The notes under the pieces were generated by a model that saw only the letters and a program-made list of their open reading frames with translations, was not told the DNA's origin and did no database searches. The position numbers were made by a program, and so were the translations under genes. A stretch of 64,000 nucleotides of DNA from an uncultured Pseudomonadota bacterium (GTDB lineage Bacteria; Myxococcota_A; UBA796; GCA-2862545): positions 310,001-374,000 of the forward strand of contig CAJXTB010000001.1 of assembly GCA_913061235.1 (NCBI GenBank). Direction: 5' to 3'. Of this stretch, positions 1 to 14,382 are shown piece by piece. Positions within the stretch are counted from its first letter, which is position 1. Every line of letters starts with the position of its first letter.

Positions 1-214
1 CTAAATCTGCTGGCCTGTCGAGCCGACAGACAAGGACGAGGCCCAACATGCACATGTTGATGGACACGACCGCCAGACGACGTCCAGCGACGGCAGCAGC
101 AAGCTCCATCGGTGATGCAGGAAGAGCGAGTGTTGGGGACTGTTCCATGGGTCGCACGTCGCAAGGCATGTTCACGGCGCTGTGGACTCACCGATTCGAT
201 GCGTCGGAGGCCAC

Positions 215-580
215 ATGAAGCGCCTGGCAATCGTCGACGACAGTGCGGCAGATCGCTTTCTCATCGAACTGATGGTGGAAGACCGATTTCACGTTGATGT
301 CTACCCAGATGCGGCCTCAGCCATTGCTGGAATCCAGTTGACCCGGCCCGACGCCGTTCTCAGCGACATCGAACTACCGGGCATGCGCGGCACGGAACTA
401 TTGGGTCGGTTGCGAGAGGTCGCGCAGGGTGTGCCCGTCATTGCATTTACCGGTCACTCTTCGGCATTGGACAAAGCGCGACTGCTGAAAGCCGGGTTCG
501 ACGGATACGTGAGTAAGCCTGTTCTAAGTGACGAACAGCTGTTCGATGAGATTGGGCGTGTAATGGATGCGGCAGGCTGA
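215..580 (+). CDS. Single-domain response regulator (receiver only)
   Basis: A 121-residue protein consisting only of a CheY-like receiver domain. The acidic pair follows strand 1 (VDDS, residues 7-10), the likely phosphoacceptor is Asp51 (LSDIELPG) and the conserved lysine is Lys101 (SKP). No output domain follows. The ATG at 215 was chosen over an in-frame GTG at 182 because GGAGG lies at 206-210, 4 nt upstream. It converges on a minus-strand kinase cluster whose last gene ends 69 bp away, so it is a plausible diffusible phosphoacceptor for those kinases. That partnership is inferred from proximity only. Confidence 0.85.
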   Translation: MKRLAIVDDSAADRFLIELMVEDRFHVDVYPDAASAIAGIQLTRPDAVLSDIELPGMRGTELLGRLREVAQGVPVIAFTGHSSALDKARLLKAGFDGYVSKPVLSDEQLFDEIGRVMDAAG

Positions 581-649: not shown

Positions 650-2068
650 CTACTCGTCAGCCATCGGCGGGAAATCGAGTAAGAAAGTGGTACCAACCCC
701 CACTTCACTTGCCATTCGCAGAGTACCTCCCATACTCCGCATCGCCCGCGTGACGATAGCGAGGCCAAGTCCGGTGCCCGGTACATCTGAAGCAGCGCGC
801 TGGAGCGGCTGGAGCACGCGCTTGGCATCCGACCGCTTGATGCCGCGGCCATTGTCGCTCACCGTGAGCGTGACCCCACTGTCAGGACGCAGACGACTAC
901 CGATCTCAATGATCAGCGCTCGACCTGGGTCTCGGTAGGTGAGCGCGTTCTCCACGAGGTTCTGAAAGACCTGCACCAAGGCTCTGTGGGAACCAACAAC
1001 GCTCGGCAGGTCGGCAATGCGCACAATCGGCTTCACCTCTTCCAAAGGCCCCGCGAGCTGCGCCAGAGACTCCTCCAAGCACGACGAGGCTTCGACCTCA
1101 GTGAGCGATTCGTGCGCGCTAGATTGGGCAAAGACAAGAAGGTCTCTGACCAGACAGGTCATCGTGGTTGCCGCTTCCATCATGTAGTGCAAACATGTCT
1201 CGGCGTTCTCGCCCGTTGGATTGGCGGCAAACAGCTCGCCAAACTGGGACATTCGTCGAGCTGGCGCCTTTAGGTCGTGGGCGGCGTGGGACGCGAACGC
1301 TTCCAGGTCCGCCGTTCTCTCCTCCACGAGTTTGGTAAGCCGCACTCGCTCTTGGGCGTGACGCATGCACTGAGCCAGCCAACTCGCGGTGCATCCGATT
1401 CGGGGCAAGACCTCATCAACCCCCTCACCGATGAGGGCGGCACTGGCCTCTTCGGTGATGACGACCAGAGGGGCCTCGGCCATCTGAACGACTGTCTTGA
1501 CGTCGTCATCTGCGCTCCGATGCCAGACGAGGATATCTCTCGACCCTCCGGTCAGTTCCGAAGCTGTCTTCAGGATGCCCACAGTAGCCTTGGGGTCGAT
1601 GAGTGCCGCCGCCTCCCGGGCAAGCTGTACAACGTCTGGATCCGAAGTGATGACGTGGATAATGGGGCCATCGATATTGGGTACCAGCCATCGCCTGACC
1701 AGCCGTGCTGCGAGCTCCCGTAGCGGCTCCAGTCCACTTGGCTTGACCTCGAACCCGCTCGCACCGGCGAGAAGAGCCTTTTCCTGGTCACCTCGCGCTT
1801 CGGACGTGGTCAACACCACGGCTGGAATTGCACGGGTATCCGGTGTCTCGCGGAGCCACTTGAGAACCTCATGCCCCGAGCGGCCAGGCATCTTGAGGTC
1901 GAGCAGAATCAGCTGTGGCGGTGAGCTGCGAGCCATCAGGTAGTGCGACAGTTCATCGCCGTTGGGCAGTCGATGGCACCGTGCGCCGGCTCGAGCCAAC
2001 GCGCCCAGAATTAGCTCGGCATGGTCATTATTGTCCTCTACAAGGAGGATGGGTGGCTCAGAGTGCAT
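650..2068 (-). CDS. Receiver-histidine kinase hybrid (REC at N-terminus)
   Basis: A soluble 472-residue kinase with the receiver first. REC spans residues 5-125 (Asp57 phosphoacceptor in LLDLKMPG, Lys109 in VKP). A region at about 135-228 resembles a second, degenerate receiver without an obvious phosphoacceptor. The HisKA H-box follows (SHAAHDLKAP, His264), then an HATPase domain with the N-box (NLVENALTY) and G-boxes (DNGRGI, GTGLGL). The ATG at 2068 lies inside the last codons of the upstream ethylene-receptor-like kinase gene (11-nt overlap), so the two are probably translationally coupled. The arrangement suggests it takes phosphate or a signal from a partner kinase and then acts as a kinase itself. 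Its target is unknown. Confidence 0.82.
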   Translation of the reverse strand: MHSEPPILLVEDNNDHAELILGALARAGARCHRLPNGDELSHYLMARSSPPQLILLDLKMPGRSGHEVLKWLRETPDTRAIPAVVLTTSEARGDQEKALLAGASGFEVKPSGLEPLRELAARLVRRWLVPNIDGPIIHVITSDPDVVQLAREAAALIDPKATVGILKTASELTGGSRDILVWHRSADDDVKTVVQMAEAPLVVITEEASAALIGEGVDEVLPRIGCTASWLAQCMRHAQERVRLTKLVEERTADLEAFASHAAHDLKAPARRMSQFGELFAANPTGENAETCLHYMMEAATTMTCLVRDLLVFAQSSAHESLTEVEASSCLEESLAQLAGPLEEVKPIVRIADLPSVVGSHRALVQVFQNLVENALTYRDPGRALIIEIGSRLRPDSGVTLTVSDNGRGIKRSDAKRVLQPLQRAASDVPGTGLGLAIVTRAMRSMGGTLRMASEVGVGTTFLLDFPPMADE

Positions 2069-3206
2069 TGGGAAACTCCAATCGGAAGCGTGCTCCTCCG
2101 AGGTCCGATTCATCAACCCACGCGCGGCCACCATGTCGCTCCGCAACACGGGCCACAATCGCGAGTCCGACCCCGGTTCCTTGTTCGTCGCTGTGCAGTC
2201 GCTCGAAGAGCTGGAAGACACGCTCGGCATGCTCAGTGGGTACGCCGCGACCGTTGTCTTCGACACTTACAATAATGCTGTCCAGACCGGCCTCCACCGA
2301 CACTCTGGTCTGGCCTTTGCCATACTTAATCGCGTTCGTGATGAGGTTCTCCATGGCCTGCGTGAGTCGCTCACGGTCCGCCCAGAGCGTGCCTAGAGGG
2401 CCACGAATCTCTACCTGAATACCGTCCTCTTCAAGCTGACCGCGCAGTGGCGCCAACACGCCTTCTACCACATCATCGAGGTTGATTTCAGAGGGTTGAT
2501 GCTGGCCATTTCCGATTCGGCTGATGGTCAGCAAATCCTCGAGCAGCGCCTGCATGCGAACGCCCGCGCTCCGAATGCGTTGGAGATGTCGGCGGGTCTC
2601 TTCTGGGTCTCCTTCCAGCGACTCAGCGGCCAGGTCGACGAACCCACTCATGGTGACCAAGGGCGTACGAAGGTCGTGTGAGACCGTGTAGACGAACTCT
2701 TCCATGTCAGAGTTTCGTCCCTGTAATGCTGTGTTTGATGTGGCCAGATCGCCCCTGGCTTGCTCCAATGCAACCGCGTTGAGTTGAAGCTCGGACGTAC
2801 GTTGTCGAACGTCGAATTCCAGAGCCTCTGGATAGCGCATGGACATCATGCGCGGAACGACAGGAATCAGGGAGAGCACGGTTGCCCAAGACACCAAAGC
2901 GGTGATGAGCTTGAGTCCCCCTGCCAGTCGGTACATTGGCTTCCAGAAGATGATGGCTTCGAGCAGATGGGTGGTGCCACAGGCGAAGACGAACACCACG
3001 AAGAGGGCGACGATACGCGGGAACGGAATATCTCCACGCCTACGCACGTAAATAATGCCCAACAAAACCGGAATAGCCATGTAGGCCATGAACACCATGA
3101 GGTCGGATGTGATGTGCACCCACCCATGGGTGTCCGACCACTGCCCACAGTGCCACCGCGCCGGAAAGTCATCGGTGTTGAACAGGCTCATAAGGAACTC
3201 AAGCAT
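2058..3206 (-). CDS. Histidine kinase with ETR1-like (ethylene-receptor type) membrane domain
   Basis: A 382-residue membrane kinase. Residues 30-120 hold three hydrophobic helices laid out like the ethylene-binding domain of plant ETR1 and cyanobacterial SynEtr1. SDLMVFMAYMAIP carries the conserved Asp35 in helix 1. FACGTTHLLE in helix 2 has Cys76 and His80 in the Cys-x3-His spacing that ligates the copper cofactor in ETR1. Helix 3 contains LITALVSWATVLSL. A coiled linker leads to HisKA (VSHDLRTPL, His177) and HATPase (NLITNAIKYG, DNGRGV, GTGVGLAI). The start is ATG 3206, with an in-frame ATG at 3191 as alternative. Known family: ETR1 binds ethylene and SynEtr1 is reported to sense ethylene and light. 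Ethylene binding here is inferred from residues only. Confidence 0.85.
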   Translation of the reverse strand: MLEFLMSLFNTDDFPARWHCGQWSDTHGWVHITSDLMVFMAYMAIPVLLGIIYVRRRGDIPFPRIVALFVVFVFACGTTHLLEAIIFWKPMYRLAGGLKLITALVSWATVLSLIPVVPRMMSMRYPEALEFDVRQRTSELQLNAVALEQARGDLATSNTALQGRNSDMEEFVYTVSHDLRTPLVTMSGFVDLAAESLEGDPEETRRHLQRIRSAGVRMQALLEDLLTISRIGNGQHQPSEINLDDVVEGVLAPLRGQLEEDGIQVEIRGPLGTLWADRERLTQAMENLITNAIKYGKGQTRVSVEAGLDSIIVSVEDNGRGVPTEHAERVFQLFERLHSDEQGTGVGLAIVARVAERHGGRAWVDESDLGGARFRLEFPNAL

Positions 3207-3424
3207 TCCGACTCTCTCGTTGGTTCTGGTGCCTTCGACCCGCGCGACAAGGGTGACCGACGTCAAGTTTGCAGGAAGCTACCCTAGACTGCAGTGAAGG
3301 CGGCCGCCTAATGACGACGTTGTAACGAGTCACTACTCAACGGTTGTTCTCCCCTTCCCACAACCTGCAATCACGGTGCAAATCCATGCCCGTGTTTGGC
3401 TCCTAGTGCCCGACGGCCAACTCA

Positions 3425-5038
3425 CTACACAGCAATCGAACACTCCAACGGTAACTGCAGCAGGAATGTGGCCCCATGACCCGGCCCCCGGCTGTCACAG
3501 GTCAGCACGCCACCCAGCTCCCGAGCCGCGCACGCACTCGCATGCAAGCCAAACCCGTGGCCATCTGCACGCGTGGTGAAGCCTTGAGCAAACACACGAG
3601 AGAGGTTGGCCGGCGGAATACCAATGCCATTGTCGCGTATCCGAAACGACAAGAAGGCCTCTTCCTTCTGGCATCGAACCCACATCTGACGCCCATCTTC
3701 ACGTGCGGGTACGACCGCCTGAACGGCATTAGACATCAGGTTGACCAGAATCTGTAGGACCTTGTGCCGGTCAATGCTCAAATATGGCAGGTCATCGACC
3801 TCACACGCGACGCCGACGCTATTCTGGGCAATCAGCTCGGCGTTGAGTGTGAGTGCATCGTCCACCAGCTCTTGGGCCGTGCACACCTCGCTCACTCCGG
3901 CAGCCTTGGCAAACGACTGCTGGGTAGCCACAATCCGACGAATGTGGTCGATGTTCTTCGACAGTTGCTTGGCCTCGCCAACCACAGCGATTCTGTCTGC
4001 ATGCAGCTTACAGGCGAGCTTGCGGACGTACTGCGCAATCTGAGCGCGTCGGGCTGGGTCAGAAAGGTCCATCTCTTCATTCGCCAAGAGAATCGCCAGC
4101 GCTTCAAGTCGGCCATCCAGCAGACCCTCCACCTTGCCGCAGACCATCGATGCGCTCACATTGACGCTGTTAAGGACGTTACCTACATTGTGCAGAACAC
4201 CGGTTGCAACCTCGGACATACCTGCCAGCCGCGATGCCTCAATCAGCTCGCTCTGCGTTGCGCGCAGCTTCTCAAGACTGTCCTCGAGGCGGTCGTTCAC
4301 ACGGGTGAGCTGGTGCGTTCGAACCTCTACCCGCTCTTCGAGGTCTTGCCGCGCTTCATGCAGTTGGCGATTCATCTGGACCGCGTCCAAGGTCACTTCA
4401 ACGTCGCCGCGAACAATCTGAAGAAACGGCTCGTCATTCCGCCGTGGCTCGGCTTCCAGGTATCCGCGACTCTGACCACGCGGCAGTGTGGCGACGAGCA
4501 GGCCACGCGGGGTTCCGTCCTGGCCTCGCGCAGTCAGTACAACATTGACCTCGGCCTCGCGACGCGGGTGTAGGTCAGCCGGCGGGTCCAACCCATCCAC
4601 AATGTCGAGCACCCGGCAGATGTCGGCCTCTGGCTGTTCGTGCACGGCTTGGCACGACGGCAGCTCTTGTAGGTCGTAGAAGTGGAACCAGGAATCGACC
4701 TGAAATTCTTGTTGTTCCTGACCATCTCGATGCACAACCACTTCGGCCTGGCCATCGTCGAAGACGACGCCCACGACCATGGGTACCGGGTAGACATCCC
4801 GAATCAACGCCACCCACGCCCGAACAACGGCCCCTGCGGAACGAGCCCGTGCGGTCGAGAGCGTGAAGGCATTGAGCTTACGCATCCGGTCCATCTGGCG
4901 TTCGAGGTCCCGCTCCATGGCGTAGCCCCGACGTTCAGCCTGAACGAGCAGCTGCACTTCTTCATCCACAATCCGTCGCTCGGACCTGCAGCGCTCAAGT
5001 CGTTCTTCAAGCTCCGCAATACGGTCGGCCGGGCTCAT
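3425..5038 (-). CDS. Cytosolic sensor histidine kinase paired with FIST protein
   Basis: A 537-residue protein without membrane segments. An N-terminal coiled coil (5-55) precedes a GAF-like sensory region (about 58-220), a second coiled coil (222-270), and a kinase core. The H-box is LAGMSEVATGVLHNVGNVLN (His283), a variant H-box common in kinases encoded next to FIST proteins. An N-box (LVNLMSNAVQA) and G-boxes (DNGIGIP, GHGFGLH) follow. The ATG at 5038 starts 1 nt after the FIST stop codon, with GGAGGG just upstream, so co-translation is very likely. It presumably transduces the FIST ligand signal. About 220 bp separate it from the ETR1-like kinase, so those two may have separate promoters. 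Confidence 0.83.
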   Translation of the reverse strand: MSPADRIAELEERLERCRSERRIVDEEVQLLVQAERRGYAMERDLERQMDRMRKLNAFTLSTARARSAGAVVRAWVALIRDVYPVPMVVGVVFDDGQAEVVVHRDGQEQQEFQVDSWFHFYDLQELPSCQAVHEQPEADICRVLDIVDGLDPPADLHPRREAEVNVVLTARGQDGTPRGLLVATLPRGQSRGYLEAEPRRNDEPFLQIVRGDVEVTLDAVQMNRQLHEARQDLEERVEVRTHQLTRVNDRLEDSLEKLRATQSELIEASRLAGMSEVATGVLHNVGNVLNSVNVSASMVCGKVEGLLDGRLEALAILLANEEMDLSDPARRAQIAQYVRKLACKLHADRIAVVGEAKQLSKNIDHIRRIVATQQSFAKAAGVSEVCTAQELVDDALTLNAELIAQNSVGVACEVDDLPYLSIDRHKVLQILVNLMSNAVQAVVPAREDGRQMWVRCQKEEAFLSFRIRDNGIGIPPANLSRVFAQGFTTRADGHGFGLHASACAARELGGVLTCDSRGPGHGATFLLQLPLECSIAV

Positions 5039-5039
5039 T

Positions 5040-6245
5040 CTACTCACCCTCCGACAGCGCAACCAGAACGACCGTGTAGTTGTGGAACTCTGTGGCACCG
5101 CCCAGAGAGGCAATCTCACCAAACGTGTGCAGTCCAACCACCGGACAGTCGTCAAATGCATCCTGCACTGGCTGCGCGATGGATGCCGTAGTCCTGTCGC
5201 CAAAGAGCAAGCCCCCACGACCCGCACAGTCGAACTGCAGCACGACAAATGCGTTGGGGGCACTCTCGCGAAGCGCACACGACGCACGAACAACCGACTC
5301 GGTGATTCGGGTCGGGTCGCGACGCGTCAGTCGGACAACCGTGCCCTGCTCCAAGCCGCCGGGAAACATGACCTCGCCGGTCTCTAAGTTCACGCCCAAG
5401 GGCATTCGAATGATGTAGTCGCCATAGTCGACGCCACTCGGGACCTCGACGCGTCGGCCCAACGCGAAGTGTGCGCTGTCCATCGCATCAAATCGGGGTC
5501 GGTTCCCCACGTAGTCTTGCATGACCTCCCAAGCCGGTCGGTCGTCCATCGTGCCAACGAGCCGTCCGTCAGACTCGGTGACGGTCATCTCCCGGCCGAC
5601 CGGCCGACAGCCGTGATTGACTTGTGTGGTGACATCAACTGGACCACAGATGACGAGGCCACACACAGCATTGCTCAGCGCGCGCCCGTCTGCATACTGG
5701 AAGGTCTTGTTGAATGCCAGCATGTCGCCGGCCGTGCCACCTAGGATTTCCACATTGGGACAGCCTGCGTCTAAAGCCGGGAACAATTTGGAGACGTTCC
5801 CCGCTAGGCCGTCTGGAAAGAGCAAGAGTACCTGCGCATCTGGCAAACCAGACACCTGCTCGGCCAGCTCAACACCGCAGCGCTCTTCGTCACCCGACAA
5901 CCCTTCGCTGAACACGGGTACAAACCGCAGAGAGTCCGACGAGAACGCCACCAAGACCAGAGCGTTCGCCTGCTCAGACGAGACGCCATGGCAGATGACG
6001 CCTTCCCCCGAGCATCCAATGACGGGCGTGCCCGGCGGTAGCTGTGTGGCGAGCTGGACCGCGATTGCGTCCTGATCGTAGCCAGCCGTAGCGAACACCA
6101 AGACCGCATCTATTCCAGCGCCGTCCAGCGCCTCAGCCGATGCGACTCGGGCCTCTTCAACGGCTTCGCACTCGTCCACTGCCCGACTAAATCCTACGCC
6201 GCAACGAGACTGTCCAGATCGCACGCCTTCCAGAACTGTGGACAC
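5040..6245 (-). CDS. FIST N/C domain signal-sensing protein
   Basis: A 401-residue protein. The N-terminal half matches FIST-N: AVLVFATAGYDQDAIA, PVIGCSGEGVI, a run of beta strands, then an EILGGTAGD motif. The C-terminal half matches FIST-C: NPAxxV-type region, FECxGRGGLLFG-like segment FDCAGRGGLLFG, and a terminal VVGLHTFGEIA followed by FHNYTVVLVAL. FIST proteins are proposed small-ligand (possibly amino-acid) sensors linked to kinases and cyclic-nucleotide enzymes. The start is a GTG at 6245 with GGAGG at 6250-6254. The open frame extends upstream without another credible start. It is the first gene of the minus-strand signalling cluster, divergent from dapA, with the kinase at 5038 directly behind it. 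Confidence 0.85.
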   Translation of the reverse strand: MSTVLEGVRSGQSRCGVGFSRAVDECEAVEEARVASAEALDGAGIDAVLVFATAGYDQDAIAVQLATQLPPGTPVIGCSGEGVICHGVSSEQANALVLVAFSSDSLRFVPVFSEGLSGDEERCGVELAEQVSGLPDAQVLLLFPDGLAGNVSKLFPALDAGCPNVEILGGTAGDMLAFNKTFQYADGRALSNAVCGLVICGPVDVTTQVNHGCRPVGREMTVTESDGRLVGTMDDRPAWEVMQDYVGNRPRFDAMDSAHFALGRRVEVPSGVDYGDYIIRMPLGVNLETGEVMFPGGLEQGTVVRLTRRDPTRITESVVRASCALRESAPNAFVVLQFDCAGRGGLLFGDRTTASIAQPVQDAFDDCPVVGLHTFGEIASLGGATEFHNYTVVLVALSEGE

Positions 6246-6367
6246 AGGACCTCCATCGGCTCTCTTCGGTCCATTCTGTACATTTCTAAAGCGAAAGTTC
6301 GTCAAGACAGACGGAGCTGGCAGCCCAACAGGAACAGCGCTACGCGGTCGATCATTAGGAGGTCCGC

Positions 6368-8302: not shown

Positions 8303-10258
8303 TCAACCGGTCGGGGCGGTGGTTGACACGTCGAGCCATGTCAGCAGCGACGTTGCCGTTTGCACAGGAGTTGTGGCGAGCAACCCGCGCTCGATGCGCC
8401 CGTGCCGCAAGCGGACTGGACTCTCGGACAGCTGCTTGTTCAGGGCATCTACGGCAGCGGGAGTGCGGCGGGAGACGTGCCAGCGACCGTAGCTGCGTGC
8501 ATCAATGCGCTCGGACAGGGCCATAGCGATGCGTCCGAGGGTGTTGCGTGCGTTGGTCTCCAGCCACGGGTGCACGGCCAAGCGCCCCTCTTCGCGAACC
8601 ACTGCGGCATCGATCGACAGCGGGCCTTGGTAGCCCAGAGACTGCGCCCACTCGCCAGCCCGTCGTGCAGCAGCCAGAAGAATCGGCTCCACCGGCTCAC
8701 TGTCTCCGCCGCCATGAATCTCGCGCTGTATCTGCGCGGGTAGCCCCCGAGTCCAACGCCCCAGCCAAGCGCCTGTGTACGCACCATTGGGAGCCGTCTC
8801 GAAGCGGCTGATGCCGTCAATACGCACGTCATCGTCAACCGTCACATGCACCGACAGGTCGAGCACGCGCTCGTACCAAGGCTGCACCAGGACCTCGCCA
8901 TGGCGCTCGAGTTGGCGAAGAAGCCAGGTACGGTGGGCGTCTGACAGTGGCCCGCGGCCTCGGATGCGCTGCGTACCTGACGCACTAAACGGGGCCTTGA
9001 TGACCCACGCACCGTCGCCGAGGTCCTGCTCTTCTGTCCAAACCGAGCCACGGTCTGCAACGAGCCCGGGGACGTCTAGGGTGTGAAACTGCCGCGCGGT
9101 CGCCGTCTTGGAGGACAAGGCCTGCCACGCCGGGTTCCACTCGGGCGTGCGGCCCAACACCTCGACATCATCCGGGACATGAACATCTGGGTTGGGGCCC
9201 CAGGGCTCGACCGAGCCAAGTGGGTGAACCCCCAGCTCGGCGCGCGTGAGTGAGTCGACGAACCGCGGCACGACAAAGCCCGCATCCGCGAGAGCGCCAC
9301 AGAATGCTGGCGACGGACGCGGAGCGACGACGGTGTCGTGCGTCGCACACAAGAACATTGGTAGAACGGCTAGATCAGCGGAGACACGGGTGGAAATCGT
9401 GCTTCGAGCCGTGCCGCTGACCACCTCTTCAATGCCAGCATCGAACCAGATCACGCGGCCTGGGCGACCGCGAGAGCCTCCGACAGTACGCAGGCGCTCG
9501 ACCTCCTGCTCAGTGAACCCGGCGGACAAGCGCCCGACACGGTCGAACTGTGGACCCCGATTTCTAGCGGGGGTGAGTGGCGGCGGAAGGTGCTGCTCCC
9601 ATGCATCGATACGGTCGCCCTCTGTCCACCGGTCAAACCACACCAGACCATGGGCCACATGCCGGATTTCGTCCGTGTACACCACTGACAGAACATCCGC
9701 GGTCTTGTGGTCACCCGCGTCCGCAAAGCGCGTTCGCCAGGTCTGGCAGAAGTCCAAGTTGGCGACCTCAAAGCACAGGGAGAGCCCCGCCAAGAACGCT
9801 TCAGGGGTCTGAACGCCGCCCAACGTGTCCCAAAAGAAGCGGCTCACGGGCACCACGCCGACATCTTCCCCACACGCACGAAGACGAGCCAGGTACATGG
9901 CACAGTGGCGCTGCTCATCTCGAAGCGTGGCGACCAATCCACGGCGAAACCCGGCGGGAGCGTCTGGCCAGCGCAACAACGCCAGCGCAATCAGCTCAAT
10001 GGCTTGCAGCTCGTGATTCGCGAGCTCATGGAGTACCCGAGCACGCCCATCATTGGCCTGAAGGTCCGCTTTCCACACGCTGGGCAGCTTGCGGTGGGAC
10101 GTTGGCAGCGCCAGTTCTTTCGGGCGTCCTGGCAGCAGCGGACGCGTGTGTGCAGCCCCACCACGAACATCTACCTCGGGCCATGCCTGGAGCTTCTCCG
10201 CAAGGGTGATGCCGTACAGGGCTTGCTCGGCGTAGGTCTGGACAGAAGCTGAAGTCAT
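8303..10258 (-). CDS. DUF455 ferritin-like domain fused to ATP-grasp domain
   Basis: A 651-residue two-part protein. Residues 1-250 look like DUF455, a ferritin-like di-iron fold related to MiaE. Candidate ligands are HELANHELQAIEL (Glu78, His82/Glu83, Glu88), DEQRH (Glu115, His118), Glu164 and YTDEIRH (Glu197, His200). Residues about 290-630 resemble an ATP-grasp ligase: an ATP-contacting lysine strand (WVIKAPFSASG), EVLVQPWYERVLDLS with a conserved acidic residue, and a metal site ending LETNARNTLG. The fusion would join an oxygen/iron redox domain to a carboxylate-amine ligase-type domain. The product is unknown. It ends 8 nt after the GH16 gene stop side, so it is co-directional and probably co-transcribed with its neighbours. 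Confidence 0.72.
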   Translation of the reverse strand: MTSASVQTYAEQALYGITLAEKLQAWPEVDVRGGAAHTRPLLPGRPKELALPTSHRKLPSVWKADLQANDGRARVLHELANHELQAIELIALALLRWPDAPAGFRRGLVATLRDEQRHCAMYLARLRACGEDVGVVPVSRFFWDTLGGVQTPEAFLAGLSLCFEVANLDFCQTWRTRFADAGDHKTADVLSVVYTDEIRHVAHGLVWFDRWTEGDRIDAWEQHLPPPLTPARNRGPQFDRVGRLSAGFTEQEVERLRTVGGSRGRPGRVIWFDAGIEEVVSGTARSTISTRVSADLAVLPMFLCATHDTVVAPRPSPAFCGALADAGFVVPRFVDSLTRAELGVHPLGSVEPWGPNPDVHVPDDVEVLGRTPEWNPAWQALSSKTATARQFHTLDVPGLVADRGSVWTEEQDLGDGAWVIKAPFSASGTQRIRGRGPLSDAHRTWLLRQLERHGEVLVQPWYERVLDLSVHVTVDDDVRIDGISRFETAPNGAYTGAWLGRWTRGLPAQIQREIHGGGDSEPVEPILLAAARRAGEWAQSLGYQGPLSIDAAVVREEGRLAVHPWLETNARNTLGRIAMALSERIDARSYGRWHVSRRTPAAVDALNKQLSESPVRLRHGRIERGLLATTPVQTATSLLTWLDVSTTAPTG

Positions 10259-13332: not shown

Positions 13333-14382
<1,050 letters not shown>

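Follow-up and report, generated by a model that had tools for sequence, protein, structure and literature searches.

An ethylene-receptor-type sensor kinase with a predicted copper site and a putative two-kinase output in an uncultured bacterium

Among bacteria, ethylene sensing is established for cyanobacteria and for one proteobacterium, and both the receptor family and its sensing principle are already known. In plants, the receptors act through the CTR1/EIN2 pathway, whereas the locus described here, found in a 64,000-nucleotide stretch of DNA from an uncultured bacterium (the window), has a bacterial two-component output. Among the bacterial receptors, SynEtr1 (also UirS or PixA; slr1212) of Synechocystis binds ethylene; its histidine kinase bears an ethylene-binding domain and, for light, a cyanobacteriochrome, and response regulators lie close by (PMC6682694). 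A preliminary description of the locus had remarked that few members outside the cyanobacteria have been studied, and this still holds, AzoEtr1 of Azospirillum being at least one such receptor examined since 2025 (PMC11819568). Residues 1-130 of AzoEtr1 bind 14C-ethylene, and D35A/C75A variants did not restore function (PMC11819568).

The locus in the window comprises the following features:

2058-3206, minus strand: ETR1_N-HisKA-HATPase sensor histidine kinase, 382 aa (Pfam, motif positions)
2808-3206, minus strand: N-terminal sensor of this kinase, residues 1-133 (alignment, homologue conservation, AlphaFold2 model)
650-2068, minus strand: partner gene REC-HK, 472 aa (sequence, Pfam, motif positions, low-confidence model)
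182-580, plus strand, convergent with the gene pair: single-domain receiver (Pfam Response_reg, E 9e-22)
3207-3424, minus strand: upstream gap of 218 bases, expected site of the promoter of the two-gene operon

The preliminary description had placed the sensor kinase frame correctly at 2058-3206 but gave no strand; the frame runs from an ATG at 3206 to 2058 on the minus strand. The match of its product to ETR1_N (PF25487) is far beyond chance (111 bits against a cut-off of 27, E 3.4e-32, residues 27-123 on profile positions 2-97). HisKA follows at 168-234 and HATPase at 277-380, and the Pfam search found no domain besides these three. The N-terminus carries the signature FPARWHCGQW, then three membrane helices, and a short helical linker joins this sensor to the full HisKA/HATPase kinase. 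All the boxes of a two-component sensor kinase are complete, namely SHDLRTP at 176 (H), NLITNAIKYG at 287 (N), DNGRG at 317 (G1) and GTGVGLAI at 343 (G2), and motif position identifies His177 as the phosphoacceptor. According to a genome profile search, this kinase holds the single ETR1_N copy of the source genome. A phage origin was considered and rejected, with 0 matches among 50,697 phage records.

Asp35, Cys76 and His80, previously proposed as the residues that hold copper and ethylene, lie at the claimed positions and align with D25, C65 and H69 of ETR1, its Cu(I) ligand set, and with D35, C75 and H79 of AzoEtr1. In the same alignment, Tyr42, Ile45, Pro46 and Val73 correspond to Y32, I35, P36 and I62 of ETR1, and Lys99 (K91) and Ser106 (S98) are also conserved. 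The landmark residues of the AtETR1 sensor sequence used match the published numbers. AzoEtr1 (L044, on a plasmid of Azospirillum brasilense Sp7) provided an independent reference, in which Asp35, Cys75, His79 and Lys98 agree with the published numbering (PMC11819568). Seven ethylene-binding residues of ETR1 were identified by alanine scanning (PMC11819568); six of the seven are identical in the window, the sole difference being the conservative change of Ile62 to Val73, and I62 lies near ethylene clusters in a published model (PMC6586836). Because I62 is a valine here, we assign the protein to the ETR1_N-family kinases and do not call it a proven ethylene receptor. Pfam and alignment thus confirm family membership and the ligand set, while ligand binding had already been marked as conjecture in the preliminary description.

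Conservation was counted over 57 distinct homologues. Asp is present in 52 of them, Tyr and Cys in 56 each and His in all 57, while position 73 is Ile in 55, Thr in one and Val in the window alone. Loss of Asp, Cys or His among close homologues had been named beforehand as a finding that would speak against the claim; the three are invariant there, occurring together in 24 of 24 close-clade rows. Another residue, Cys20 (3147-3149), lies before helix 1, is present in 53 of the 57 homologues and is usually preceded by His; it may form the disulphide of a dimer or contribute to another metal site.

An AlphaFold2 model built from 24 aligned sensors (mean pLDDT 89) has the three N-terminal helices typical of the ETR1_N family, at 25-54, 63-85 and 92-122, and a further helix leads from there to the kinase. 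It places Asp35 in helix 1 and Cys76 and His80 in helix 2, in agreement with the preliminary description; being four residues apart, Cys76 and His80 therefore lie on the same face. When solved relatives of the sensor were sought in the PDB, only coiled-coil or designed-bundle matches were obtained by sequence, and the fold search gave no match with E below 1.7, which leaves the copper site without a template.

Like the window protein, AzoEtr1 combines an ETR1_N sensor with a transmitter kinase, and in both loci the kinase stop slightly overlaps the start of a downstream receiver gene. However, AzoEtr1 has a PAS domain, the N-terminus LPHGVC and Ile at the I62 position, whereas the window protein has no PAS domain, begins with FPARWHC and has Val73. 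The partners also differ: that of AzoEtr1 is a lone 135-aa receiver, and that of the window is a receiver heading a second kinase. With SynEtr1, the window protein shares the ethylene-binding domain on a histidine kinase and the nearby response regulators, but Pfam detects in it no cyanobacteriochrome or phytochrome-type domain. The "light-dependent copper" sensing once suggested for this kinase is therefore unsupported. In comparison with plant ETR1/ERS1, the three-helix sensor and the residues D25, Y32, I35, P36, C65, H69 and K91 are retained, whereas the GAF domain is missing, the N-terminus has one Cys and not two, and I62 is replaced. The closest relative comes from a Polyangia metagenome-assembled genome (JAUILJ010000454.1); it begins at a Met aligned with the window start and shares 67% sensor identity, the signature and the ligand set, but has a longer linker ahead of the kinase and no REC-HK beside it within its short contig.

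In a maximum-likelihood tree of 44 sensors, the window sensor falls in a well-supported group (98/99) of 28 rows whose N-termini share a P[AP]RWxC-type signature, in full form P[AP]RWxCGxW, with members in Bacteroidota, Planctomycetota, Verrucomicrobiota and Myxococcota. AzoEtr1 and one cyanobacterial plasmid member fall in a separate, mostly MPHGHC set. Two entries, one from a genome of the window's phylum (L014) and one labeled "Polyangia bacterium" (L023), carry an identical sensor, and the source genome of the window is very likely one of Myxococcota. ETR1_N scores above the cut-off in 17 of 284 genomes of the phylum, 2 of 63 of the order and 1 of 21 of the family, and in 14 of 198 genomes of the phylum of a Bacteroidota member. 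This patchy distribution suggests gain by transfer, and it is distribution that carries the suggestion, since foreign base composition was considered and rejected (the GC3 of the genes is ordinary for the window). Three homologues (L022, L025 and L042) have a short sensor frame, followed in L022 and L042 by a kinase frame in a different reading frame; these are possible frameshifts or sequencing errors. A distant homologue, L097 (G448:C66), has Asn for the copper-ligand Cys and Thr for both I62 and P36, with His and Asp kept.

The last 11 bases of the sensor kinase gene (3206-2058) are also the first of REC-HK (2068-650), counted from its ATG. The product of REC-HK consists of a receiver (Asp57), a region at 119-225 and a histidine kinase (His264). 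Region 119-225, perhaps a degenerate receiver, gives no hit in Pfam up to an E-value of 5 and is poorly modeled (pLDDT 28-48 in a single-sequence model), and no full-length relative of REC-HK was found among the genomes of its order. A sigma-70 scan of the minus strand found no promoter in the 218-base gap. From gene order, we infer that phosphate passes from the sensor kinase to REC-HK. Many relatives, like AzoEtr1, have a lone receiver in the place of REC-HK, and of 42 other loci, 18 show a receiver as the next gene downstream in the same orientation. In three loci of the same phylum (L058, L060 and L061), the sensor kinase and REC-HK form a single polypeptide, accompanied by a lone receiver, with the domain order of the window's two genes, and in several further loci of the phylum REC-HK-REC genes adjoin the sensor kinase; we take these fusions and neighbors as support for a putative kinase-to-kinase relay. 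The fused sensors themselves have Asn for the copper-site Asp, Ala or Thr for Pro and Arg for Lys, a consistent subfamily that has possibly been re-purposed. The receiver at 182-580 is, from its position, a possible downstream phosphoacceptor.

The window protein is probably a real sensor of ethylene, or of a similar gas, from the known family. We put at roughly 60% the probability that it is a sensor kinase of the bacterial ethylene-receptor type that senses ethylene or a similar gas by means of Cu(I) and has its output via REC-HK. This sensing is favored because the homologous AzoEtr1 and SynEtr1 sensors bind ethylene (PMC11819568; PMC6682694), and the estimate is held there because of the Val73 change and because a literature search found no published assay of any P[AP]RWxCGxW clade member. 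The patchy distribution of the family and the failure to find a full-length REC-HK relative in the order also count against this reading. In the proposed mechanism, the protein would form an inner-membrane dimer, perhaps with Cys20 as the link, and hold Cu(I), to which ethylene or a similar small olefin would bind. Binding would change kinase activity at His177, phosphate would move to Asp57 of the adjoining REC-HK, and this phosphorylation would control the second kinase and the downstream receiver, possibly the convergent one. The genome also encodes a copper P-type ATPase (match above cut-off), which was counted in favor of this reading; its ACC-deaminase match is below cut-off and carries no weight.

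It is also conceivable, but rather unlikely, that the sensor binds Cu(I) while its signal is copper itself, carbon monoxide, another olefin or an alkyne, ethylene being incidental. The conserved Cys, His and Asp are primarily copper ligands, the almost invariant Cys20 and the common His19 could make a further metal site, and the host is not known to encounter or produce ethylene. However, a plain copper sensor has no obvious need of the conserved non-ligand pocket residues Tyr42, Ile45, Pro46 and Ser106, and ethylene is bound by AzoEtr1 and SynEtr1 alike (PMC11819568; PMC6682694). Less probable still is a derived receptor, in which the Ile62-to-Val change weakens or abolishes ethylene binding and the kinase has another input or is constitutive. 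Val73 is indeed unique among the 57 homologues, and relatives with altered sites exist (Asp-to-Asn in five rows, Cys-to-Asn in L097), but replacing Ile by Val is very mild, none of the copper ligands is affected, and the requirement of ETR1 for Ile62 comes from alanine scanning.

That the residues are conserved merely for the packing of a three-helix membrane anchor, with nothing sensed through them, seems highly improbable. Many further columns of the domain are invariant too (26 in A3), but Asp, Pro and Lys vary in the Asn-type subfamily with the fold retained, and mutation of the equivalent positions kills AzoEtr1 function.

What appears new, judging from sequence, is a clade whose predicted copper site is intact, together with a putative two-kinase output. 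Tentatively, and with somewhat less than even odds, the P[AP]RWxCGxW clade may be a separate branch of ethylene or olefin receptors, working in some Myxococcota through a relay from the ETR1_N kinase to REC-HK. If so, it would give ethylene input to bacteria outside the plant-associated groups, and an intact ligand set in a further multi-phylum clade would widen the range of perceivers of this plant and soil gas. Nature also supplies, in Val73 and the Asp-to-Asn sensors, variants with which the requirements of the pocket can be probed.

Directly upstream of the sensor kinase (3425-6248, minus strand) lie genes for a FIST_N/FIST_C protein, weakly NosP-like (72.7 bits, cut-off 450), and, following it, for a histidine kinase whose H box is of the HNVGN type. 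Membership of these genes in one operon with the sensor kinase was considered and rejected, and we regard them as a distinct second sensing module, because of the 218-base gap and because no FIST gene was seen next to the kinase in other loci. Elsewhere on the minus strand, the product of 8303-10258 has a DUF455 domain (residues 35-253) and about 400 residues with no Pfam match at the threshold used, and 13333-14382 encodes a protein, predicted to be secreted, in which a signal-like start is followed by a long run of Ser/Thr-Asp repeats.
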